This document shows, piece by piece, positions 16,597 to 30,606 of a stretch of DNA of 41,467 nucleotides. A program made the position numbers and the translations under genes. The stretch lies in the NCBI GenBank assembly GCA_001751075.1, contig MAVP01000003.1, forward strand, positions 1 through 41,467, given 5' to 3'. The DNA is from Desulfobacterales bacterium S7086C20. Its GTDB lineage: Bacteria; Desulfobacterota; Desulfobacteria; Desulfobacterales; C00003060. Positions within the stretch are counted from its first letter, which is position 1; every line of letters begins with the position of its first letter. Under the pieces are notes generated by a model. It was not told the origin of the DNA. It saw only the letters and a list, made by a program, of their open reading frames with translations, and made no database searches.

Positions 16597-19500
16597 ATGC
16601 CCACACCACTCATGGAGACACTCAGAAAACAGACCAAAGAGGAAACCATTTCTTACGAGTATACATACTGTCTTGACGGTGGTGAACTGGCTATTGCCGT
16701 AGGTAAAGACGAGAACCAGTACCGTATCAGTCTGATCACAGACATTGACGGACCGCTGATCCTTCATTGGGGTATTTCAAAACATTCTCGGCAGCAATGG
16801 GTCTTGCCGCCGGCCGACATACGTCCTAGTGGAACAGTTGTGCTTCAAGATAAGGCCGCCGAGACGACCTTTGCTGAAGAGGGTGATTACAGAAAAGTTC
16901 AACTAAACCTCGCGGGGAAAGATGCGCCAATCGGCATTCCCTTTGTCGTCAGGCAGGTTGGTACTGATCGTTGGATAAAAGATAATGGGCGCAATTTTTA
17001 TATTCCCGTTGCTGTTTCCCGGCAATACAAAGAGACTTTTAAAGACGTTGCTGTGGCAGGACTTGCCGATACGATCATTGAAAGGGAAATGGGTCCGCAC
17101 TCATGGACACTGATGCATCGCTTCAATCTGTGTTATGACCTGCTGGAAAGTATTGGAGGCAATGTTGAAGGATTAGCGCTGATCTATGTGTGGCTCCGAT
17201 TTTCCGCCTTGAGGCAACTGGACTGGCAGCGCAACTACAACACCCAACCAAGAGAATTGAGCCATGCCCAGGACCGTCTGACCCTTAAACTTGCTGAGCA
17301 GTATCAAAGACAACCACAAGGCCGAGAGTTTATCCGGCTGATACTTACTACCTTGGGCCGAGGCGGTGAAGGGCAGCGTGTGCGTGATGAGGTCTTAAAC
17401 ATTATGCACCGTCATCACATCAAGGAGATTTCAGGCCATTTCATGGAAGAATGGCACCAAAAACTGCATAACAACACCACACCTGATGATGTTGTTATCT
17501 GTGAGGCGTACCTGGCATTCCTCAAAGCAAACGGCAACCTTGACATCTTTTACAAGACTCTCGAGGCGGGTGGTGTTACCAGAAAACGATTGAAGGGCTT
17601 TGAGCGATCCATTGTGTCAGACCCTGATTTCATTGCCCACCTGAAAGAGGCATTGATCCACGATTTTGAACATTTCCTGGGTATCCTCAAAAGCGTTCAT
17701 AGCGGTACTGATCTTGGGACTGCCATCCATGCCGCCAGGCACCTGTTCGATAAAAAACTCCACGATCTAATGGATTTTATATGGGCCCATCGCGATGATC
17801 CGGGAACCCGGGCAGGGATACTCGTTGCAAAGATCGTTGAGGGGCGCCAACACTTGAAGATGCAACTAGAGTACGCCGGAACGAATGGCCGAGATGCGCT
17901 CTTCGTCGACCTTGCACTTGATGATTTCTTGCGTGTTGTCATAGAACGCAATCTTTGCCATGATATCAGCGGAGATGAATTAGCAGAACTGATCACAATG
18001 GTGACAGAAGACCTACTCATCACAGAAGAAAACGACGAACTTGAATACTCTTTGGGCCACTGGAAACGCCTCGGGCAGAGGCCCCGCTTTAAACAGCAGT
18101 GGTCGCTTGAAGCCAAGGCCGTGCTGGACCGTGTTGGGCGTGCCTTAGGTGCTGTAATAGACCGCTATTACCAGATCCTTCAGCCAATGGCGGAATTTCT
18201 AGGCACAGCCTTTGAGGCAGAACCTTGGATTATTACACTATTCAGTGAAGAAGTTGTGCGTGGCAGTCCCGCGTTTGCGCTGGCCGCACTCTTGCGTCAG
18301 ATTGATCCTGTATTGCGGAAAAGCGCCGAGCTTGGCAATTGGCAGGTAATCAGCCCCGGGCAGACAACGGGCATAGTCGATGTAGTCTCTAATATGCAGT
18401 CCATTCAGAGTAAAGACTTTTCGCAAAACACCGTCATCATTGCCGACATTATTACAGGGGCCGAGGAGATTCCGGCAAACATCAGTGCTATCATCACTCC
18501 GGATACAACCGATATCGTATCCCACGTGGCGATTCGTGCCAGAAATGCAAAAGTTCTTTTTGCTACGTGTTACGATAGTGATACAATTGCTCAGTTGAAG
18601 TCCATCAGAGGACACTGGCTCCAGCTAAGCGTGAATGTGGCCGGTGACGTGGTGTTTGAGGAAAGCCGGGAAGCGGATGCAAAAGATGCGAAGCCGCTTT
18701 CTGAGCAAAGCGCTATCCCACACCTCCTATCCCGGCCCGGATTTACCGATTATGCCGTAACCGCCGGTGAGTTTAATGAGGGAAACGTTGGGGGCAAATC
18801 CCACAACTTGAAACAGCTACATGGCAAAGTGCCGAATTGGATTCATTTGCCTGCTTCAGTGGCACTTCCCTTCGGGGTTTTCGAAGAGGTTCTTTTCCGA
18901 GAGGAAAACAGGAAGGTTTCCAAACAATACGAAGCACTGATTCATGATATCGATAAGGAAAAGGAGAATGCAAGGGATGAGATCCTTGGTAAACTCCGAA
19001 AAACTGTTATGTCCCTTGCCGCGCCCGAGGAATTGGTCTCTTGCCTTCGTGAAGCAATGTATGAAGCAAGGCTTCCTTGGCCGGAAAACTGGGAAGGCGC
19101 CTGGAGGGGCATCAAAGGGGTGTGGGCCTCAAAGTGGAATGACAGAGCACTTTTGAGCCGAAAGATCAGAGGAATACCTCATGACGATCTCTTCATGGCT
19201 GTCCTCATCCAAGAGGTGGTTGAGGCTGAATACAGTTTCGTGATTCATACTGTCAATCCTTTGACAGGTGACGGAAAAGAGGTGTATGCAGAGGTCGTTT
19301 CCGGCCTTGGAGAAACCTTGGTGGGCAATTACCCGGGAAGGGCTCTGAGCTTTACCTGTAACAAGGATGGGCTTAAACCAAAGATCAAGGCCTTTCCGAG
19401 CAAGAGCATTGGTCTTTTCGGTAGAGGGTTGATTTTCCGCTCTGATTCTAATGGAGAAGATCTCGCCGATTATGCGGGGGCTGGCCTGTATGACAGCATT

Positions 19501-19716
19501 ATGCTGGAGCCTCCGGTCAAGACCCGCTTGGATTATACCGAGGAATTGCTCATACAAGATGAAGATTTTAGAAACGAATTCATGGTTTCAGTTGCCACTA
19601 TTGGCGCCATAATTGAGGAGGCCTTGGGCTTTCCGCAAGATATCGAGGGAGCATATTGCAAGGGGCAATACCATGTAGTGCAAACGCGCCCACAGGTTGG
19701 AACTGCAAATGAGTAA
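16597..19716 (+). CDS. Alpha-glucan, water dikinase homologue (GWD type)
   Basis: A 1039-residue homologue of plant GWD, which moves the beta-phosphate of ATP onto glucosyl residues of starch and releases the gamma-phosphate as Pi. One N-terminal carbohydrate-binding segment like CBM45 is visible (ILHWGISKHSRQQWVLPP, residues 55-72); plant GWD has two. The middle carries the GWD-specific stretch EEWHQKLHNNTTPDDVVI (284-301). The phosphohistidine domain has ITPDTTDIVSHVAIRARNAK (633-652), with catalytic His643. The C-terminal ATP-binding domain has RSDSNGEDLADYAGAGLYDS (948-967) and PQDIEGAY...VVQTRPQ. These motifs separate it from PEP synthase and PPDK. The next gene starts within its last 8 bases. 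It has no clear ribosome site. Confidence 0.93.
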   Translation: MPTPLMETLRKQTKEETISYEYTYCLDGGELAIAVGKDENQYRISLITDIDGPLILHWGISKHSRQQWVLPPADIRPSGTVVLQDKAAETTFAEEGDYRKVQLNLAGKDAPIGIPFVVRQVGTDRWIKDNGRNFYIPVAVSRQYKETFKDVAVAGLADTIIEREMGPHSWTLMHRFNLCYDLLESIGGNVEGLALIYVWLRFSALRQLDWQRNYNTQPRELSHAQDRLTLKLAEQYQRQPQGREFIRLILTTLGRGGEGQRVRDEVLNIMHRHHIKEISGHFMEEWHQKLHNNTTPDDVVICEAYLAFLKANGNLDIFYKTLEAGGVTRKRLKGFERSIVSDPDFIAHLKEALIHDFEHFLGILKSVHSGTDLGTAIHAARHLFDKKLHDLMDFIWAHRDDPGTRAGILVAKIVEGRQHLKMQLEYAGTNGRDALFVDLALDDFLRVVIERNLCHDISGDELAELITMVTEDLLITEENDELEYSLGHWKRLGQRPRFKQQWSLEAKAVLDRVGRALGAVIDRYYQILQPMAEFLGTAFEAEPWIITLFSEEVVRGSPAFALAALLRQIDPVLRKSAELGNWQVISPGQTTGIVDVVSNMQSIQSKDFSQNTVIIADIITGAEEIPANISAIITPDTTDIVSHVAIRARNAKVLFATCYDSDTIAQLKSIRGHWLQLSVNVAGDVVFEESREADAKDAKPLSEQSAIPHLLSRPGFTDYAVTAGEFNEGNVGGKSHNLKQLHGKVPNWIHLPASVALPFGVFEEVLFREENRKVSKQYEALIHDIDKEKENARDEILGKLRKTVMSLAAPEELVSCLREAMYEARLPWPENWEGAWRGIKGVWASKWNDRALLSRKIRGIPHDDLFMAVLIQEVVEAEYSFVIHTVNPLTGDGKEVYAEVVSGLGETLVGNYPGRALSFTCNKDGLKPKIKAFPSKSIGLFGRGLIFRSDSNGEDLADYAGAGLYDSIMLEPPVKTRLDYTEELLIQDEDFRNEFMVSVATIGAIIEEALGFPQDIEGAYCKGQYHVVQTRPQVGTANE

Positions 19717-22700
19717 TCACCGCCGAATCAGGATCGGCAATCAGAGCGCTTTTTCAGCGGAAAGGGTAATTCAACCCTTCGAGTTTGCCGTAGCAAGTGG
19801 CTTCGATGCCTTTGAATGGCTTCCGGACAAAAAGGAATCCGGAGCTGGTTGGCAAGAATGCGATATTGATGCTCAAACACGCCGTTACATAAGAAACACA
19901 GCCCGTCAACACGACATCAGACTGTCTGTTCATGCCCCGTGGCACGTCAATCCTTCAGAACCAGACCTCAGCGAGCAGCTTCTTAAAACCGTACAGTTTG
20001 CTCAGGACATCGAAGCATCGCTTTTAAATGTCCACCTCTTTACTGAAAATGGGACTGAGGCCTATGTTCGAGGCATCATCCCGTTTATTAAGTCTCTCAG
20101 AAAAACCGGAAGCAGGCTCTCAATCGAGAATACCCCCCTGACAGCCCCCGGGGACTTGAACGCATTTTTTGCTACACTACAACACCTTGCCCCCGCCGAG
20201 GCAACACAGACAGGGATGTGCCTCGACCTGGGACACGCCAATCTGTGTTCCGCCACCTTAAATGACTACATCAAGTTCATTGACCTTCTTGATCCTGACA
20301 TTCCCATCATTCATATTCATCTGCACGAAAACTACGGGGACCATGACAGTCACTTGACCCTGTTTACAGGGCCTTCCGGACAGGATGTCTCCGGCATCAA
20401 GGCCTTTTTAAAACTCATAAAAAAACGCCGGTTTTCAGGCAGTATCATCTTGGAACAGTGGCCCGAACCACCTAGTCTGCTAATTGAGGCCCGTAACAAC
20501 CTGAAAATCATGATCGGCAATTCGCCGCCGCCCCTTGTTGAACCCCGAAATGCCAACACAGAGGACTTTGTGAGTGTTATTGCCGAGGCAGACAGACAAC
20601 ACAGAAGTTGGAGAGAAAAACTTGCCTGGGTCCATGATTTTGTTGCCGAGAAAATCTCTTCTCATAACACGAGGCAACTTACTTACCTGATGATCTATCT
20701 GCGTTTTATCGGCACAGGCCAGGTTGCCTGCACCGAGGATGGCAAACACTACCGTCCTTCTCATCATGCCAAGATCGCCCGCGGAATCCACAATCGTCTG
20801 GCCGAGATAACTACTCCCGAAAATGTCTTTATCATCAGGAAGATCTATCCATGGCTGCCCTCGTATGAGAACCGCTTTGCTAATGCGGAACCACTCACAC
20901 GGATAAGAGATCTTGCCCACCGAAACGATATTTGCAAAGAACTCAAACAAGAAATAAAGCACACACTGCAAAATAAGCTGCACAGATGTGCCGGCCCGGA
21001 GGATCTTGCCACATCAGCAGCCTTGCTTAAAAGGATAACAGCCCCTAATGCAAATTACCCAAATGACTTTGTTAAAGAGTTTGTGAGATTCCATGAAGAA
21101 CTAGAGGAGTTTTTTAATGTCCATTCCTTGGAAGAGCAGCTTGAAGCCATCGCCTCCAATGCTCGGAAGGATGAAGATTCTACTACCTTCAAGTTGATAA
21201 GCGATTTCCTTAAAGCCAAGAAAAAGGCTGTTACGTCGGAAGAGTTGATAACTGCTTTTGAGCTTTTGACAACACTTCGTCGTCAATTTTTTAAAAAGTC
21301 TAAGATTGATACCAGCGCTCAGCAGCAAGGACTTCAACTGGCCGACATAAGATTGGAAGACTATGCTTTTGTTCTGTTGAGCCAATTGATCAATCACCTT
21401 GCCACTGCTGGAAAAGAAAACATGCAGTGGCCTATGGCGGGACACTGTTTAGGCTTGGCCATTTTGAACCTGCGCCTAAGCGGCTTGGACAGCTTCGAAT
21501 GTCGGGCCATAGAATCGGAATTAGAGCTTTGGCATGAAAGTTTTACACCCAAAAACCGTGAGCATGTTCTTCGTCTCAAGGCTACAATTGATCGTTGTCG
21601 AAGACTGGCAGAGAGATATTCAGACAAGATCCTTTCCCTGTTTCCCGAAAAGGTTCAAAGACTGGGCCGGGCCTTGGGTGTGGCCAAAGAAGCCATAAGG
21701 GTTTTTTCTGAGGCCGAGATTCGAAGCCATTTAGTCTTTCAAGTCTCAAGGCTTGTGGATCTTGTGTTGAAATCGATCCGCTCAGTTGCCTACCTCTCTC
21801 CGTGGGACGCTATCGTGTGCGAGAAAGTTTGTGGCCGTCTAGTCGAGACCCAATATCTTGACGATTTATCCGACCTCTCTGATGAACTGGTCGTGGTATT
21901 GCTTGAAAAAGCCCGGGGCGATGAAGAGCTATCTGCCGGCGTAGGAGGTATCGTCTTGGCCCACGAAATGGCGCATCTTTCTCACCTAGCGGTCCGGGCG
22001 CGGCAAGAAAAAGTAGCGCTAGCCGTGTGCGAAGACGCAAACCAATTTGGGGAGCTTAGAAACCTTGTCAATACACAGGTTGTCTTGGGAGTATCTCCTG
22101 AAGGTGTAGTGCTTGAAACCTCCTCAAATCATGGTATCGTAGAGGCAACTGACAGGAAAAGCAAGATTGGGCATGGGAACATTGATGTGGCTGATGTGCC
22201 TTTATCTTTTTCAGTCCCGTTGATCCCACTTAACGAAGTTACGCAGAAAACAGGGGGAAGTAAGGCATATGGAGCAAGACGCCTTGAAGAAATCTCACGC
22301 GTTCAGACCGCTGGGTTTGCAACACCTCCCGGAGTTGTGATTCCCTTTGGTGTGATGGAAGAGTCTCTGCACTTTTCGCCGGCCCTTAAAGAAGAGTACC
22401 AAGCCTTGGTCAACCAGCTAAACGACCTAGAACAAGATGATTTCTCAGAGGCCTTGGCAAGACTGCAACGTATCCATGACGAGCCTAGTGTTTCCCGCGA
22501 GATAGTCCGACTGGTGCAGAAAAAATTCCCGCATGACGCACGACTTATGGTGCGTTCAAGCGCCAACTGCGAGGACCTGGAAAGATTATCAGGGGCCGGG
22601 TTGTACGAATCAGTAGCAAACGTATCGCCATCTGAGCTATCTCAAGCAATATGTGAAGTCTGGAGATCCCTGTGGGCCAAGCGGGCGGTCATGAACAGGA

Positions 22701-23176
22701 AAAGGCATGGCATCCCGCATGATAGGGCTCATATGGCACTGCTCATCCAGCAGATGCTGGTTGCCGATCTTTCGTTCATCATCCACACGGTCAATCCCAT
22801 AGACCATAACACGAACGAGGCTTATGTCGAGCTAGCGGTGGGATTGGGAGAAACCTTGGCCTCCGGCAAGTCCCCGGGATGTCCATATCGAATGCTCTGC
22901 GACAAGAATACAGGGGCGGTCAGAATGCTGGCCTTTGCCAGCTTCAGCCAGGCCTTGTGGCCTGATCTTTCAGTGGATCTGAGAGCCGAAACGATAGACT
23001 ATTCCAAGATCAACCTAACAATAGATGAAGATTTCAGAAACCGTTTGGGGGGCCGCCTTGGAGCAATGAGTCGATTTGTGGAAAAGGCCCTGGGGGGACC
23101 TCAAGATATCGAGGGACTTGTGATTGATAGTAAGATCTATCTTGTCCAGGCGCGACCTCAACAAGATGTTTTGTAA
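19709..23176 (+). CDS. TIM-barrel sugar isomerase-like domain fused to a PWD-like glucan dikinase
   Basis: A 1155-residue fusion. Residues 1-265 form a xylose-isomerase-like (AP endonuclease 2) TIM barrel with likely metal ligands in VHLF (His109), SIENT (Glu140), LDLGH (Asp173, His176), HIHLHEN and ILEQW (Glu249). Residues 280-640 are helical and unassigned. The dikinase part has a phosphohistidine domain, HEMAHLSHLAVRARQEK (752-768), with His759 aligned to the catalytic His of plant phosphoglucan, water dikinase. The ATP-binding domain follows, with MVRSSANCEDLERLSGAGLY (947-966) and PQDIEGL...LVQARPQ (1131-1151). It probably phosphorylates glucan, perhaps already phosphorylated glucan. The ATG at 19709 overlaps the GWD stop. 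Confidence 0.88.
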   Translation: MSNHRRIRIGNQSAFSAERVIQPFEFAVASGFDAFEWLPDKKESGAGWQECDIDAQTRRYIRNTARQHDIRLSVHAPWHVNPSEPDLSEQLLKTVQFAQDIEASLLNVHLFTENGTEAYVRGIIPFIKSLRKTGSRLSIENTPLTAPGDLNAFFATLQHLAPAEATQTGMCLDLGHANLCSATLNDYIKFIDLLDPDIPIIHIHLHENYGDHDSHLTLFTGPSGQDVSGIKAFLKLIKKRRFSGSIILEQWPEPPSLLIEARNNLKIMIGNSPPPLVEPRNANTEDFVSVIAEADRQHRSWREKLAWVHDFVAEKISSHNTRQLTYLMIYLRFIGTGQVACTEDGKHYRPSHHAKIARGIHNRLAEITTPENVFIIRKIYPWLPSYENRFANAEPLTRIRDLAHRNDICKELKQEIKHTLQNKLHRCAGPEDLATSAALLKRITAPNANYPNDFVKEFVRFHEELEEFFNVHSLEEQLEAIASNARKDEDSTTFKLISDFLKAKKKAVTSEELITAFELLTTLRRQFFKKSKIDTSAQQQGLQLADIRLEDYAFVLLSQLINHLATAGKENMQWPMAGHCLGLAILNLRLSGLDSFECRAIESELELWHESFTPKNREHVLRLKATIDRCRRLAERYSDKILSLFPEKVQRLGRALGVAKEAIRVFSEAEIRSHLVFQVSRLVDLVLKSIRSVAYLSPWDAIVCEKVCGRLVETQYLDDLSDLSDELVVVLLEKARGDEELSAGVGGIVLAHEMAHLSHLAVRARQEKVALAVCEDANQFGELRNLVNTQVVLGVSPEGVVLETSSNHGIVEATDRKSKIGHGNIDVADVPLSFSVPLIPLNEVTQKTGGSKAYGARRLEEISRVQTAGFATPPGVVIPFGVMEESLHFSPALKEEYQALVNQLNDLEQDDFSEALARLQRIHDEPSVSREIVRLVQKKFPHDARLMVRSSANCEDLERLSGAGLYESVANVSPSELSQAICEVWRSLWAKRAVMNRKRHGIPHDRAHMALLIQQMLVADLSFIIHTVNPIDHNTNEAYVELAVGLGETLASGKSPGCPYRMLCDKNTGAVRMLAFASFSQALWPDLSVDLRAETIDYSKINLTIDEDFRNRLGGRLGAMSRFVEKALGGPQDIEGLVIDSKIYLVQARPQQDVL

Positions 23177-24221
23177 AACCATAGCCACAGTTTCCCAATC
23201 TCCTCGCTTGCTGGGACTCTTTCAGAAAAGGATTGATGGTGATGATGCACTGCTCGATTTGGCCAGGGTCCGTTTTAATGAAATGGGTCTTGGAGCAGAG
23301 TTTTATGCTGAAACAACAGAGGAACTTGACCACTTACTGAAATTCAGACCTGCGGCTGAAACCCCTCTGGTGGCCCATTTGCGGCGTGGAATTAATCTGC
23401 TCGAGAAAAAGGATTTGAGCTTAGTCATTGATTTTGCAGAAAGATTCAAAGGCCGGCTCTTTGGCTTTGTCGTCCATGATCAACCCGAAATCTCCACCCG
23501 CTTTGACGATTACTTGTCTGCTTTAAACAGGCTTGAAGCTGAATACAACAAGATCCAGGGGAGCCCCTATCTTTTCATAGAATATGCTGTGGGCCTGGCC
23601 CCTTCTCTTTTTGTCCATTTCGCAGAAACCATGAAAGGTCTTCAGCGAATAAGCTGTTGCATTGACATAGGTCATATCGGCCTATGGCAGGCGAGAACTG
23701 CTTATAGCAAAGAGCATCCCGGAAAAGATGTATGTAGCCTAACAACAGACGATTCTTCTTTGCCGGAAGTAATCGAAGACGTTCAAAGTGCGGTTCGTTC
23801 AGCACTGGATACAGTGTTAAGCATAGTTCGGGTGCTAGGCCGTTTAGAAAAACCGTTGCATTTCCATCTTCATGATGGCCATCCTCTTTCAATTACGAGT
23901 CCCTTTGGAATTTCCGACCACCTGAGTTTTCTGGATAAAATTCCCGTTCCCTTTGAATACAAGGGAAAAAGGTCTCTTGATCCCATGTTTGGTCCTTCAG
24001 GTCTTTCAAGTATCGTTTCTGAGTCATTGAAGCACCTCGGTCCAGAGCAAGTCTCTTTTTCACTTGAGATTCATCCTGCACAGGGAAGGCTTCCCCTTGA
24101 AGATGCTTCTTACCTTTTCGATCACTGGGAGGAAAAGACGAATGCAGAAAGGATGAACCACTGGCTTTGGGTGCTTTCTCAAAATCAGCAGCTTGTGCAG
24201 AACTCATTGGAAGGAAAATAA
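23166..24221 (+). CDS. Second TIM-barrel (xylose isomerase-like) protein of the glucan cluster
   Basis: A 351-residue protein resembling sugar-phosphate isomerase/epimerase TIM barrels. Candidate metal ligands lie on the expected strands: Glu in LFIEYAVG, Asp and His in CIDIGHIG, His in HFHLHDGHP, and Glu in SLEIHPA near the end. It has only distant likeness to the barrel at the N-terminus of the preceding dikinase. The substrate is unknown; a phosphorylated sugar released from the glucan is a guess. The ATG at 23166 lies within the last 11 bases of the dikinase gene, so translation is coupled. The GH13 gene starts 2 bases after the stop. Confidence 0.8.
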   Translation: MFCKTIATVSQSPRLLGLFQKRIDGDDALLDLARVRFNEMGLGAEFYAETTEELDHLLKFRPAAETPLVAHLRRGINLLEKKDLSLVIDFAERFKGRLFGFVVHDQPEISTRFDDYLSALNRLEAEYNKIQGSPYLFIEYAVGLAPSLFVHFAETMKGLQRISCCIDIGHIGLWQARTAYSKEHPGKDVCSLTTDDSSLPEVIEDVQSAVRSALDTVLSIVRVLGRLEKPLHFHLHDGHPLSITSPFGISDHLSFLDKIPVPFEYKGKRSLDPMFGPSGLSSIVSESLKHLGPEQVSFSLEIHPAQGRLPLEDASYLFDHWEEKTNAERMNHWLWVLSQNQQLVQNSLEGK

Positions 24222-24223
24222 CT

Positions 24224-25522
24224 GTGAAACCAACGGCAAAGATGATCATCTATAATTTGTTCCCTCTCTTGGCAGGCAAGTTTACCGATTGGGAAAAGCA
24301 TTTGTTAAGGGCATCTGAGATGGGCTTCAATTGGGTTTTTGTGAATCCGATTCAGCGTCCCGGAAAATCGGGGAGCCTTTACTCTATTGCCGACTATTAT
24401 GCCTTCAACCCGTTGCTGGTTGACAAAGAGAGCCGAAAGAAACCGCAACAGCAGGTAAAAGATGTTGCCGGGTCTGCGGAAAAACTGGGCCTCAGCTTGA
24501 TGGTGGATCTTGTAATCAATCACTGCGCTGCTGATTCGGAGCTGATCAAGTCTCACCCGAAATGGTTTCAGTGGAAGGACAGCGATCATGTGGCCCACCC
24601 TTCCTGTGACGAAAACGGAGAAAGGGTGGTCTGGAAAGACCTTGCGAAGTTTGATCATGACAACTCGCAGGACAAGGAAGGACTTTTTAGATTTCTATCT
24701 GATGTGGTGATGTACCTGATAGATCTAGGATTTAAGGGTTTCCGTTGTGACGCAGCGTATCAAGTCCCCAGGGCCGTGTGGGAAAGGCTCATAAGTGAGA
24801 TACGAAAGAGACATCCTGAGGTGAAGTTCTTTGCGGAAACACTCGGGTGTTCACCAGACCAAACCATACAAACAGCAGGAGCTGGTTTTGACTACATATT
24901 TAACAGCTCAAAGTGGTGGGATTTTGAAGCCCAGTGGTTGATGAAACAATATGCCCTTACGCGTGAGATTGCGCCTTCCATAGGTTTTCCTGAAAGCCAC
25001 GATACCGTGAGGCTCTATGATGAACTCGATGGCAACATGGCTGGGATGAAACAACGCTATCTATTTTCAGCACTTTTCTCTTCAGGGGTTATGATGCCCA
25101 TGGGGTTTGAATACGGCTTCAGGAGAAAACCCCATGTAGTAAAGACAAGGCCACAAGACTGGGAAACAACCGATGTTGATATGACGCATTTCATAAAAGC
25201 CGTAAACAAGCTTAAGGCAGGGCATGCAATCTTTCAGGAAGAAGCGCTAACCGAAATACTGTACTACAACAATCCGAATCTTCTCCTCTTGTGGAAGGCC
25301 TCTACTACCACTCAAGAAGAATGTCTCATTATCGTCAACAAGGATATTTCCAACAAACAGCATTTTCATGTAGAAAGTCTGCAAGAATTTGTTCAGGCAG
25401 GGGCTCCACTTGTTGATCTCTCTCCAGAATATCAAATGAACTATATTCCCAGCCCCTTTTCGTACGATTTCCGGCCAGGACAGGGTATAGTCTTGATGAC
25501 TTTAAGGGATTTGCCGAAGTAG
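24224..25522 (+). CDS. GH13 (alpha-amylase family) glycoside hydrolase or transglycosidase
   Basis: A 432-residue single-chain GH13 enzyme. All three catalytic residues are present: nucleophile Asp176 in GFRCDAAYQ, acid/base Glu205 in FFAETLG, and Asp260 in FPESHDTVRL. The conserved VDLVINH is at residues 94-100. There is no signal peptide, so it acts on cytoplasmic glucan. It lacks the extra N-domain of branching and debranching GH13 enzymes; the exact reaction (hydrolysis or transfer) cannot be read from sequence. The GTG start at 24224 has AAGGA 8 bases upstream and follows the previous stop by 2 bases. An ATG at 24242 is the alternative. The 149 bases after it hold no clear gene or terminator. 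Confidence 0.88.
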   Translation: MKPTAKMIIYNLFPLLAGKFTDWEKHLLRASEMGFNWVFVNPIQRPGKSGSLYSIADYYAFNPLLVDKESRKKPQQQVKDVAGSAEKLGLSLMVDLVINHCAADSELIKSHPKWFQWKDSDHVAHPSCDENGERVVWKDLAKFDHDNSQDKEGLFRFLSDVVMYLIDLGFKGFRCDAAYQVPRAVWERLISEIRKRHPEVKFFAETLGCSPDQTIQTAGAGFDYIFNSSKWWDFEAQWLMKQYALTREIAPSIGFPESHDTVRLYDELDGNMAGMKQRYLFSALFSSGVMMPMGFEYGFRRKPHVVKTRPQDWETTDVDMTHFIKAVNKLKAGHAIFQEEALTEILYYNNPNLLLLWKASTTTQEECLIIVNKDISNKQHFHVESLQEFVQAGAPLVDLSPEYQMNYIPSPFSYDFRPGQGIVLMTLRDLPK

Positions 25523-25671: not shown

Positions 25672-26433
25672 ATGCATCTTGTTGCTCTTCACGTGTTTGG
25701 TTTGTATCTTCTCAATAAACTTAACTTAATAACCTGGGGCAATAAGGCCATTAACCGACTCAGGCCGAACGGGTGGGTGTTACCAGTGTATTGTTGTGCA
25801 ACAAGTGAAACCGCTGACAAAGCACACAGCCTCATAGATTCTTGCATCGAAACAAGAGTTGTTCTTTTGCCCGTTGACCCGTACCTGGTTCATGTTTACT
25901 GGGAGGTCAACTCTAAGGAAATTGATAGAGCAAGATATTTGCTGGGTGACACATACGAATCTTCGCAGGCTTTACTCAGGTTCTATGATGTTACCAATGT
26001 TTTCTTTGACGGTACAAATGCCAACAGCTCGTTTGATGTGAAAATCGACCTTGAATCGAAGAGCTGGTATGTTCGCCTCTGGGTCCCAGACAAGTCATAC
26101 GTTGTTGAACTGGGCTATAGGACCACCGACGGCAGTTTCTTTTCGTTGGCACAATCAAACACCGCGCGCACACCCCGTGCCTGGCCTGTACCAAGGGTGG
26201 ATGACACCTACTCGCTCGTTGATCGACGTGCCGACGATGGCCTGGCAACCACCGAAGTCCATACAGCACCTCATGGCGGTGACAAGAAGCAATCCAATCG
26301 GCGAGAGTTAACCTCCCAAACGTGGGAAACCGAGCCTGAACCCAAAGATGAGAGTTTAACACAGATGAATGAGGAGCAATTTTCCTTTGGTATGTCATCA
26401 TATCGTATCTCATCAATACGGTGCTTGCGATGA
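25672..26433 (+). CDS. DUF4912 domain protein
   Basis: A 253-residue protein with a DUF4912 domain at about residues 60-185, marked by LLPVDPYLVHVYWEV, LLRFYDVT, SWYVRLWVPDKSYVVELGY and SFFSLAQSNTARTPR. The domain looks like an immunoglobulin-like sugar- or protein-binding fold; its biochemical role is unknown. The C-terminal 65 residues are polar and probably disordered. AAGGTG lies 7 bases before the ATG at 25672, but the first 35 residues are poorly conserved-looking, so the start is uncertain. It sits between GH13 and GH57 enzymes, which suggests an accessory role in glucan binding or regulation. Confidence 0.8.
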   Translation: MHLVALHVFGLYLLNKLNLITWGNKAINRLRPNGWVLPVYCCATSETADKAHSLIDSCIETRVVLLPVDPYLVHVYWEVNSKEIDRARYLLGDTYESSQALLRFYDVTNVFFDGTNANSSFDVKIDLESKSWYVRLWVPDKSYVVELGYRTTDGSFFSLAQSNTARTPRAWPVPRVDDTYSLVDRRADDGLATTEVHTAPHGGDKKQSNRRELTSQTWETEPEPKDESLTQMNEEQFSFGMSSYRISSIRCLR

Positions 26434-26485
26434 TCAGCTCTGAAGTTTCACGATTTCCTACAAGTCCTTTTCGCGGGGTTTGAAA

Positions 26486-28081
26486 ATGGAAAAGGCTTAT
26501 CTGGCTATTGTGCTTCATGCGCATCTTCCTTATGTCAGACATCCTGAACACGTAGATTCTCTTGAGGAGAACTGGCTGTATGAGGCTATCACCGATACTT
26601 ACATCCCTCTGCTTTTCGTGCTGGAAGGTTGTGTAAAAGATGGAATTGACTTTCGCCTGACTCTGTCACTTACCCCCACCCTTGCCTCTATGCTCGCAGA
26701 CCCGTTGTTGCAGAGCAGATATTTGGAAAGACTGGAAAGGATGATAGAGTTGGCCCAAAAGGAGATTAAACGCACTAGATCCCAGCCCGAATTTAACGCC
26801 TTGGCCCTTATGTACAACACCCGTCTTGGGCAGGTGCATGAGGCTTTCGTCAATCGTTATGAACAAAACTTGCTCCAGGCCTTCAGGTCCCTACAAGAAC
26901 GCGGAAAAGTGGAAATCATGGCCTGCGCCGCCACGCATGCTTATCTCCCCCTGCTTTCAGTAAACAGGTCCGCTGTTAGGGGACAGATTGGGATCGGGGT
27001 TGAACATTACAGGGAAGTATTCGGGAAAAGCCCCGAGGGCTTCTGGTTGCCGGAATGCGGTTATTATCCTGGAGTCGACGAATTACTCGACGAATATGGC
27101 ATACGATATACTGTACTTGAGACTCACGGTATCACGCGGGGCAACCCAAGACCTGAGTTTGGCGTCAATGCCCCTGTTTTTTGTTCCTCAGGAGTTGCTG
27201 CCTTTGGGCGAGACCCTAAATCCTCGGCCCAAGTTTGGAGTTCTGAAATCGGTTATCCAGGGGATTATGATTACAGGGAATTCTATCGTGACATTGCTTA
27301 CGATCTTGACCTCGGATATGTCGCGCCCTATATTCACAGGGATGGGATTCGAGTAGATACCGGCTTTAAGTATTTCCGTATTACCGGCAAGGGCAATCAC
27401 AAGGACACCTACATCCCAGAACAAGCAGAAAAGAAGGCCGAGCTTCACGCAGAAGATTTTATATCCAAGCGCTTCAAACAGGTTGAATATCTTGGCTCCA
27501 TTATGGATCGCAAACCAATCATTGTGGCCCCCTTTGACGCTGAGCTATTCGGCCATTGGTGGCATGAAGGACCATTGTGGCTGGACCATGTTATCCGCAA
27601 ACTTCATTCGGCACAGGCGGGAATCAGGCTTGCTACGCTTTCTGAATACCTCGAACAATATCCCATAAATCAGGTTTCAACACCTTCCTATTCCAGTTGG
27701 GGACACCATGGGTTCAATGAGACCTGGCTCAACGGGAAAAACGAATGGATCTATCCTTGTCTCCATAAAAGCGCACTGCAAATGGAAAGGCTGGCGAACA
27801 ATTATCCTCAGGCCAAAGGCTTGACATTGAGGGCGCTTAAACAAGCAGCACGGGAGTTGTTGCTGGCACAGTCAAGCGACTGGGCTTTTATGATCAATGC
27901 AGGCACTATGGCAGAATACGCTACTGAGCGAACCAAAAGGCATATCTCCCGCTTGGCAAGACTAGCACAAGACGTTGAGTCAGACAGTATCGACCAAGTC
28001 TGGCTGTCCAAATTGGAAACCCGGGACAACATCTTTCCTGGAATAGACTACCGCTTCTTTTGTGGAAGTTCTCGTTTATGA
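26486..28081 (+). CDS. GH57 1,4-alpha-glucan branching enzyme
   Basis: Introduces alpha-1,6 branches into alpha-1,4-glucan in the cytoplasm. The 531-residue chain matches GH57 branching enzymes with a DUF1957-type C-terminus. The opening LAIVLHAHLPYVRHP has the conserved HxH. The nucleophile is Glu190 in FWLPECGYYPG, and the acid/base is Asp351 in APFDAELFGHWWHEG, close to the positions known in the Thermococcus kodakarensis enzyme. The C-terminal helical part contains SSDWAFMINAGTMAEYA. The start ATG is at 26486; the upstream TTG at 26480 is less likely. glgA follows after 31 bases, so the pair would build a branched polymer. Confidence 0.94.
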   Translation: MEKAYLAIVLHAHLPYVRHPEHVDSLEENWLYEAITDTYIPLLFVLEGCVKDGIDFRLTLSLTPTLASMLADPLLQSRYLERLERMIELAQKEIKRTRSQPEFNALALMYNTRLGQVHEAFVNRYEQNLLQAFRSLQERGKVEIMACAATHAYLPLLSVNRSAVRGQIGIGVEHYREVFGKSPEGFWLPECGYYPGVDELLDEYGIRYTVLETHGITRGNPRPEFGVNAPVFCSSGVAAFGRDPKSSAQVWSSEIGYPGDYDYREFYRDIAYDLDLGYVAPYIHRDGIRVDTGFKYFRITGKGNHKDTYIPEQAEKKAELHAEDFISKRFKQVEYLGSIMDRKPIIVAPFDAELFGHWWHEGPLWLDHVIRKLHSAQAGIRLATLSEYLEQYPINQVSTPSYSSWGHHGFNETWLNGKNEWIYPCLHKSALQMERLANNYPQAKGLTLRALKQAARELLLAQSSDWAFMINAGTMAEYATERTKRHISRLARLAQDVESDSIDQVWLSKLETRDNIFPGIDYRFFCGSSRL

Positions 28082-28112: not shown

Positions 28113-29579
28113 ATGTTTATCGTTATGATCACCCCGGAATGTGCCCCTGTTGCCAAAGTCGGTGGCCTGGGAGATGTCGTACAGGGGCTTTCCCGCGAAC
28201 TGGACCTCAGGGGAAATGCGGTAGAGATTATTCTGCCCAAGTATGATTGTATGCGCTACGATCGCATCTGGGGGCTTGAAAAGACATTCGGAGATTTATG
28301 TGTTCCCTACCATGACCAGCATGTTCATTGCGATGTCTATTTCGGCTTTGTAGACGGCCTGAAATGCTTTTTCATTGAACCGCATTCTTTCAAGAATTTT
28401 TTCGACCGGCACACCTTCTACGGGCACGATGATGACGTCGAACGCTTTGCCTTCTTTTCCAGAGCTGCCCTGGAGTTCATGCTCAAGACAAACAAGCATC
28501 CCGACATTATCCACTGTCACGATTGGCAGACGGCGCTGGCGCCGGTCCTTCTCTTTGATATATATAAACACATGGGAATGACCCACCCGAGAGTCTGCTA
28601 TACGTTGCACAATCTCAAGCATCAGGGTGTCACCGGGGAATATGTGCTGCGCCAAGTCGGCCTGGATCCTGCTCATTACATGACACAGGACAAGCTTCAA
28701 GACAACTTCAACCACGGTGCTGTAAACCTGATGAAGGGAGGAATCGTTTATTCAAACTTTATTACCACAGTCTCCCCTCGCTATGCCGACGAAATAAAAC
28801 ATTCTGACATGGGATGCGGCTTGCAACATACACTCCATGACCATGCCGCAAAATTTGGTGGAGTCTTAAACGGCATTGATTACAACGTTTGGAATCCAGA
28901 AACCGACCCCTATATTGCCTGTCAATATGGAGTGGAAACGGTCGGTGACAAATACAAAAACAAAGAGGCCCTACGCCAAAGGCTCTGGTTAGGAAAGGGT
29001 TTCAAGCCGATTGTTGCTGTGGTAAGTCGTCTCGACCATCAAAAAGGGGTGGGCCTGATACGGCACGCGATTTCTTATGCCCTTGAAAACTCCTGTCAGT
29101 TTATCCTTTTAGGATCAAGTCCTGATCCCGTCACCAACAACGATTTCTGTGCCCTGAAGCAATGGCTGAATGACAACCCAGATTGTCACCTCGAGATTTC
29201 ATATGATGAGGAGCTGGCACACCTCATATATGCAGGGGCTGACATGATTCTCATACCCAGCGCCTTTGAACCTTGCGGCCTGACACAAATGATCGCCATG
29301 AAATATGGAACTCTCCCCATTGTTCGAAACATTGGCGGATTAGCAGACACAGTGTCTGATGCGGATTATTCGCACAGGCCGTATCACGAACGTAACGGCT
29401 ATGTTTTTAATGATTTTGATAACCAAGGGCTCCAGTCTGCAATGAGCCGGGCCATTGGCCTTTGGAACGTATACCCAGAGTATTTCCGGGAGCTTATGGT
29501 AAATGCAATGAGGTACGACTACTCCTGGAACCATCCTGGACAGCACTATCTCAATATTTACAATCACATTAAGGAGTAG
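28113..29579 (+). CDS. glgA: Glycogen/starch synthase GlgA (GT5)
   Basis: Adds glucosyl units from ADP-glucose (or UDP-glucose) to the non-reducing end of alpha-1,4-glucan. The 488-residue length fits the family. The nucleotide-sugar motif AKVGGLGDVV gives Lys15, as in Escherichia coli GlgA. Other GT5 marks are CHDWQTALAP, VLNGIDYNVWNP, VSRLDHQKG and the C-terminal IPSAFEPCGLTQMIAM. The gene for the sugar donor (glgC) is not in the window. The ribosome site is weak. The 277 bases after the stop contain no gene I can support and no strong terminator. Confidence 0.96.
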   Translation: MFIVMITPECAPVAKVGGLGDVVQGLSRELDLRGNAVEIILPKYDCMRYDRIWGLEKTFGDLCVPYHDQHVHCDVYFGFVDGLKCFFIEPHSFKNFFDRHTFYGHDDDVERFAFFSRAALEFMLKTNKHPDIIHCHDWQTALAPVLLFDIYKHMGMTHPRVCYTLHNLKHQGVTGEYVLRQVGLDPAHYMTQDKLQDNFNHGAVNLMKGGIVYSNFITTVSPRYADEIKHSDMGCGLQHTLHDHAAKFGGVLNGIDYNVWNPETDPYIACQYGVETVGDKYKNKEALRQRLWLGKGFKPIVAVVSRLDHQKGVGLIRHAISYALENSCQFILLGSSPDPVTNNDFCALKQWLNDNPDCHLEISYDEELAHLIYAGADMILIPSAFEPCGLTQMIAMKYGTLPIVRNIGGLADTVSDADYSHRPYHERNGYVFNDFDNQGLQSAMSRAIGLWNVYPEYFRELMVNAMRYDYSWNHPGQHYLNIYNHIKE

Positions 29580-30531: not shown

Positions 30532-30606
30532 TGGTAGGCACGCGGGGATTTGAACCCCGGACCTCTACCGTGTCAAGGTAGCGCTCTCCCCCTGAGCTAC
30601 GTGCCT
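30532..30606 (-). tRNA. tRNA-Val (anticodon GAC)
   Basis: On the minus strand the acceptor stem AGGCACG pairs with CGTGCCT. The anticodon stem CTACC/GGTAG holds TTGACAC, giving anticodon GAC. The T-arm contains GGTTCAAATCC. The discriminator is A and the CCA end is encoded (30534-30532). The 73 bases between it and pgsA hold no further gene. Confidence 0.96.

Follow-up and report, generated by a model that had tools for sequence, protein, structure and literature searches.

The window analysed here, a stretch of 41,467 nucleotides, contains an open reading frame that, judged from its sequence, is a full-length dikinase of the GWD (alpha-glucan, water dikinase) family. The genes that follow it point to a dedicated phosphoglucan system that comprises a glucan synthase of its own, a pair of dikinases and candidate TIM-barrel phosphoesterases and that would work apart from the ordinary glycogen pathway of the genome; we advance this reading tentatively and rate it at somewhat under an even chance. 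The GWD protein itself likely phosphorylates alpha-glucan, as its homology suggests.

The GWD gene occupies exactly positions 16597-19716 of the forward strand, from ATG to stop, and encodes 1039 amino acids arranged as an Ig-like N-terminal module, a central domain, a phosphohistidine domain with His643 and an ATP domain. Pfam searches located a single copy of Ig_N_CWD1 (PF23166) at residues 27-138 (E 3e-27 in one search, 9e-29 in another), GWD1_pHisD (PF22973) at residues 581-693 (E 5e-36) and PPDK_N (PF01326) at residues 836-1035 (E 1e-25). The N-terminal region of GWD type, present by its match to PF23166, is predicted to be a glucan-binding module; the CBM45 model itself is absent from the libraries used. 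Residues 284-299 read EEWHQKLHNNTTPDDV, and His643 sits in DIVSHVAIRARN. The best solved structures were chains of the plant GWD central domain, 9ha9 and 9qvi (E 5e-93 over residues 156-577), and the central domain is 44% identical to the plant domain. W286, H287, H643 and the ATP-site residues S949, D950 and D955 were invariant in all bacterial GWDs covering them (58-63 rows, with H643 kept in 58 of 58), and the RSDSNGED residues of the ATP domain were invariant or almost so. Reading frame, motifs, Pfam domains and matches to plant structures agree, and they bear out the original prediction of a real GWD homologue with the family-specific stretch, His643 and the ATP domain. The exact start of the gene is uncertain, since the open frame extends back to 16507 and no clear ribosome-binding site was seen upstream of the ATG.

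An identity as PEP synthase or pyruvate phosphate dikinase (PPDK) was considered and rejected. The models of these enzymes matched the ATP domain alone, scoring 72 bits where the cut-off is 598, and the family-model search gave no full-length match that would include their PEP/pyruvate domain. Among solved structures, too, PEP synthase aligned with the ATP domain only. Placement of the protein among PEP synthases or PPDKs, which had been named as the outcome that would overturn the assignment, did not hold.

The window protein has the domain order of plant GWD1 (EC 2.7.9.4) and shares with it the Pfam N module, the central domain, the EWHQKLHNNT motif and the phosphohistidine and ATP domains. 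It differs from the plant enzyme in having one N module, in being without the first cysteine of the CFATC-type pair, and in its genomic setting, an operon that also codes for a dedicated glucan synthase, a branching enzyme and TIM barrels. Tandem N modules, another likeness to plant GWD1, occur in many bacterial relatives (8 of the 10 scanned, which were chosen partly for their long N termini), and the N-terminal lengths of bacterial GWDs cluster near 140 and 280. In plant GWD1 the redox pair is a CFATC-type motif. No such cysteine pair was found near the catalytic histidine of the bacterial proteins: a cysteine at position 654 was seen in 0 of 58 bacterial GWDs, while Cys658 was always present in these rows. 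The redox pair is a regulatory trait of plant GWD1 and no requirement of the family.

In the tree of central domains, 59 bacterial GWDs lay on one side of a branch and the single plant row on the other, with a support of 85 that was not starred; this one plant sequence stands on a long branch and the tree gives no direction of transfer. Thus, of the description 'plant-type GWD', membership of the GWD family stands and a special likeness to plants does not, since the bacterial proteins group apart from the plant row; given the missing first cysteine of the redox pair, the term is misleading, and no bacterial GWD sequence was especially plant-like. Rows from Nitrospirota, Proteobacteria and desulfobacterial genomes were intermixed in the tree, which is consistent with exchange between phyla, with the binning of metagenome-assembled genomes as a caveat.

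Six further genes lie downstream of GWD, all on the same strand and closely packed. These code for DIK2 (19709-23176, overlapping GWD by 8 bp), TIM2 (23166-24221, overlapping DIK2), a GH13 alpha-amylase/glucanotransferase-like protein (24167-25522, likely ATG at 24242), a DUF4912 protein that is a conserved neighbour (25672-26433), a GH57 alpha-1,4-glucan branching enzyme with a BE_C domain (26480-28081) and GlgA2, a cluster-specific ADP-glucose glucan synthase (28113-29579) with 36% identity to the other GlgA of the genome. With GlgA2 and the GH57 enzyme in the same cluster, the claim that GWD belongs to a cluster which makes and branches alpha-glucan was confirmed. Its place at the head of the GWD-GlgA cluster was also correctly seen, but the second dikinase and the second TIM barrel had gone unrecognised. 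The complete seven-gene order was found in two more genomes of the genus, one of them as the public contig DAOUZN010000030.1. Our searches of the open-access literature turned up no account of the operon, nor of the TIM-barrel partners or a bacterial PWD-like partner.

A HypA gene precedes GWD in the window and is not beside GWD in the two other full-cluster members of the genus. Genes flanking the cluster in the window are not beside it in other carriers of the genus, and all its genes may be transferred together. Rfam returned two tRNAs only; a tRNA-Val gene (30532-30606, reverse strand) lies directly downstream of the cluster. In scans for promoters and terminators, matches were no more frequent than in shuffled sequences. 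The DUF4912 gene keeps its place beside that of the GH57 enzyme across several phyla, and its product is possibly a glucan-binding or scaffold protein. Contamination with algal DNA was rejected, as bacterial genes flank both sides and the same operon occurs in other genomes.

DIK2 (1155 aa) is a fusion protein that begins with a TIM barrel, TIM1 (residues 1-270), and continues as a second dikinase of the GWD/PWD type with a central domain (285-700), a phosphohistidine domain with His759 and an ATP domain. GWD1_pHisD (PF22973, E 4e-20) and PPDK_N (PF01326) were both detected by Pfam, the middle region aligned with the GWD central domain (hhalign 99%, E 1.4e-18), and in a PDB profile search the DIK2 profile reached plant 9ha9 (E 5e-9), so that a second GWD-type dikinase with homologous central, phosphohistidine and ATP domains is present in the cluster. 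The AlphaFold model of DIK2 (mean pLDDT 85.6) matched the ATP domain of rifampin phosphotransferase and, in its N-terminal part, MJ1311 along with epimerase-like and endonuclease-IV-like barrels. DIK2 resembles PWD (EC 2.7.9.5) in being an additional dikinase related to GWD and encoded in its cluster, but algal and plant PWD carry a CBM20 (PMC8703398). DIK2 showed no N-terminal CBM20 and has the TIM barrel in its place; therefore, it was not filed as PWD. No PWD sequences were found in the collections searched, the PDB profile search included. We take the DIK2 motifs to resemble those of plant PWD, as a lead only, and a PWD-like role is put forward as a hypothesis.

TIM1 matched AP_endonuc_2 (E 5e-19), and its nearest solved relatives by profile were MJ1311 (3wqo, E 4e-14) and endonuclease IV (5zhz, E 0.001); the match to the NCBIfam model of CbiR (E 7e-11) was below cut-off. 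Nine residues, H75, H109, E140, D173, H176, H204, D213, H215 and E249, were invariant in 37 of 37 TIM1 sequences, fused or free-standing, and run in the order of the nine metal ligands listed for endonuclease IV. Sites one to six, up to and including the first strand of the HxH region, were assigned by HMMER alignment with 5zhz, D213 and H215 by motif, and E249 by alignment with MJ1311. Although TIM1 shares the fold and the nine-ligand order with the endonuclease IV/CbiR/MJ1311 family, it stays below the family cut-offs, it is fused to or adjoins glucan dikinases, and nothing points to DNA or cobamide as its substrate. TIM2 (frame open from 23124, ATG at 23166) is a divergent metal-site TIM barrel of the xylose-isomerase-like superfamily. 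No Pfam family matched it; its model is a confident barrel (pLDDT 92.2) with weak xylose-isomerase-like matches in the fold search, and it has an invariant H/E/D/H set comparable to that of TIM1, to which it is related (hhalign 91%, E 9e-7).

A scan of genome contigs yielded 62 GWD loci, labelled as Deltaproteobacteria/Desulfobacterota, Nitrospirota, Nitrospinota, anammox Planctomycetota, Verrucomicrobiota, Acidobacteriota and gamma- or beta-Proteobacteria; the scan patterns were derived from the window GWD and more distant bacterial GWDs may escape them. GWD is patchy across at least seven phyla, and its carriers are mostly uncultured. No GWD relatives were met in the viral contigs scanned. 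Of the 43 loci whose downstream sequence reaches 3 kb or more, 30 have TIM1 after GWD (29 without L034). Full DIK2 and TIM2 agreed in 35 of the 36 loci with at least 5.2 kb downstream (15 with both, 20 with neither), L021 being the sole locus with DIK2 but without TIM2. Since the sequences are related, neither the GWD-TIM1 nor the DIK2-TIM2 counts are independent events, and the Fisher P of 6e-8 for DIK2 and TIM2, from a table scoring L034 without DIK2, is indicative only. TIM1 alone stands beside GWD in many loci without the DIK2 kinase half, and L011 and L049 encode TIM1 and the kinase half in two distinct reading frames. Read most simply, these patterns make TIM1 a partner of GWD and TIM2 a partner of the DIK2 kinase.

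In some Nitrospirota loci, GWD lies beside GH13 with neither TIM1 nor TIM2 near. A calcineurin-like phosphoesterase, which could be an alternative phosphatase, was observed near GWD in L043, L051, L053, L054 and L060, mostly Nitrospirota loci without both TIM barrels. The GlgX-type debranching enzyme family is represented near GWD in L041, L044, L054 and L058, and the L058 enzyme has an additional match to PF21156, the C-terminal domain of plant isoamylase. In Nitrospirota and anammox loci (L012, L022, L026, L029, L030 and L057), GWD repeatedly has a DUF3536-containing GH57 protein as a neighbour.

Elsewhere in the genome lie GlgP (C28), a GH13 GlgB (C10), GlgX (C40, above cut-off) and a second GlgA (C56), together with the start of GlgC, cut off after 64 codons by the end of a contig (C37). 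The cluster thus gives this genome another synthase and another branching enzyme and, because of the separate conventional glycogen pathway, looks like a dedicated second polyglucan system. Within the genus, the other GlgA, with 34-38% identity to GlgA2, was present in 19 of 21 genomes. GlgA2 itself was found at 80-82% identity only in G302 and G309, both with the whole cluster, apart from a fragment with 64% identity in G300; in several genomes that bear GWD, the assembly is broken up in this region.

In the proposed mechanism, GlgA2 and the GH57 branching enzyme would build an alpha-glucan, and GWD would pass the beta-phosphate of ATP via His643 onto glucosyl residues of this polymer. The kinase half of DIK2 would perform the same chemistry via His759, probably as a second, PWD-like phosphorylation, whose target may be another glucosyl position or a pre-phosphorylated glucan. 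TIM1, acting with GWD, and TIM2, acting with the DIK2 kinase half, would remove glucan phosphate in a metal-dependent manner, after which GH13 and GlgP could break down the opened chains. The barrels would thereby fill the role of plant SEX4 and LSF2 via an unrelated fold. Their likeness to the phosphoglucan phosphatases SEX4, LSF2 and laforin is in the proposed role only, those enzymes being dual-specificity phosphatases, and no dual-specificity phosphatase (Pfam DSPc) was detected in the genome. We infer the glucan substrate, the phosphorylated positions, the phosphatase activity of the barrels and the physical state of the polymer.

The fold searches with TIM1 and TIM2 also matched sugar epimerases and isomerases, D-tagatose/D-psicose 3-epimerases and xylose isomerase among them. 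It is therefore conceivable, although we consider it rather unlikely, that GWD works as in plants and DIK2 is a second glucan dikinase, while the barrels are isomerases or epimerases acting on sugars or sugar phosphates from the breakdown. The ligand set alone is no proof of a phosphoesterase, since a D-x-H metal motif of similar look occurs in another barrel protein of the genome that has no dikinase link. However, the extra ligands of endonuclease IV type (H75, H109, D213 and H215) are kept in every TIM1 sequence, the best TIM1 profile matches are MJ1311 and endonuclease IV and not characterised sugar epimerases, and fusion to a kinase and pairing with dikinases are less expected of an isomerase. 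On these features, we tentatively favour metal-dependent phosphoesterases for both barrels. As to the polymer, the cluster might phosphorylate ordinary soluble glycogen, tuning its branching or turnover, with no starch-like polymer formed; we judge this close to an even bet, if slightly short of it, and it is compatible with a dedicated phosphoglucan system, which fixes no physical state. Soluble glycogen would fit the presence of GlgA and of a branching enzyme of family GH57 among the cluster genes, and also the report that glucan phosphate reduces the affinity of branching enzymes, a bacterial one included (PMC13011383). Yet a conventional GlgA, GH13 GlgB and GlgX lie elsewhere in the genome, so that a second set would be redundant unless it served a different polymer. 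GWD on its own is no proof of an insoluble polymer and the genome has a conventional glycogen set besides, so the original suggestion of a starch-like glucan in place of soluble glycogen is not supported in the form given.

The origin of the bacterial genes was considered as well. The only mention of bacterial GWD that we found in the open-access literature is the legend of a figure in a 2018 Goniomonas paper, according to which some bacteria could have gained GWD by lateral gene transfer (PMC6260743). A recent acquisition from algae or plants would agree with the patchy spread of the gene, which matched in 4 of 297 genomes of the phylum, the window's own genome counted, and in 12 of 60 relatives, every one in the same genus of 22 genomes (10 with a clear GWD, and G307 and G308 with DIK2-like fragments only). 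Nevertheless, such a recent origin seems very improbable to us: bacterial GWDs are deeply diverged, with central domains 49-71% identical to that of the window protein, they sit in conserved bacterial operons, and their position on one side of the tree, facing the single plant row, argues against recent transfers from plants.

The cluster might even represent a complete bacterial phosphoglucan cycle, in which dikinases orthologous to plant GWD and PWD would each have their own endonuclease-IV-like phosphatase and act on a possibly starch-like second polymer, a reading that we regard as unlikely. If it were true, the GWD/PWD pair would predate plastids, and the starch-phosphorylating enzymes of plants would derive from such a bacterial system. 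The operon would offer a tractable system for the working of glucan dikinases and a testable source for the plant starch-phosphorylation pathway, and its TIM barrels may constitute a new class of phosphoglucan phosphatases with an unrelated fold.
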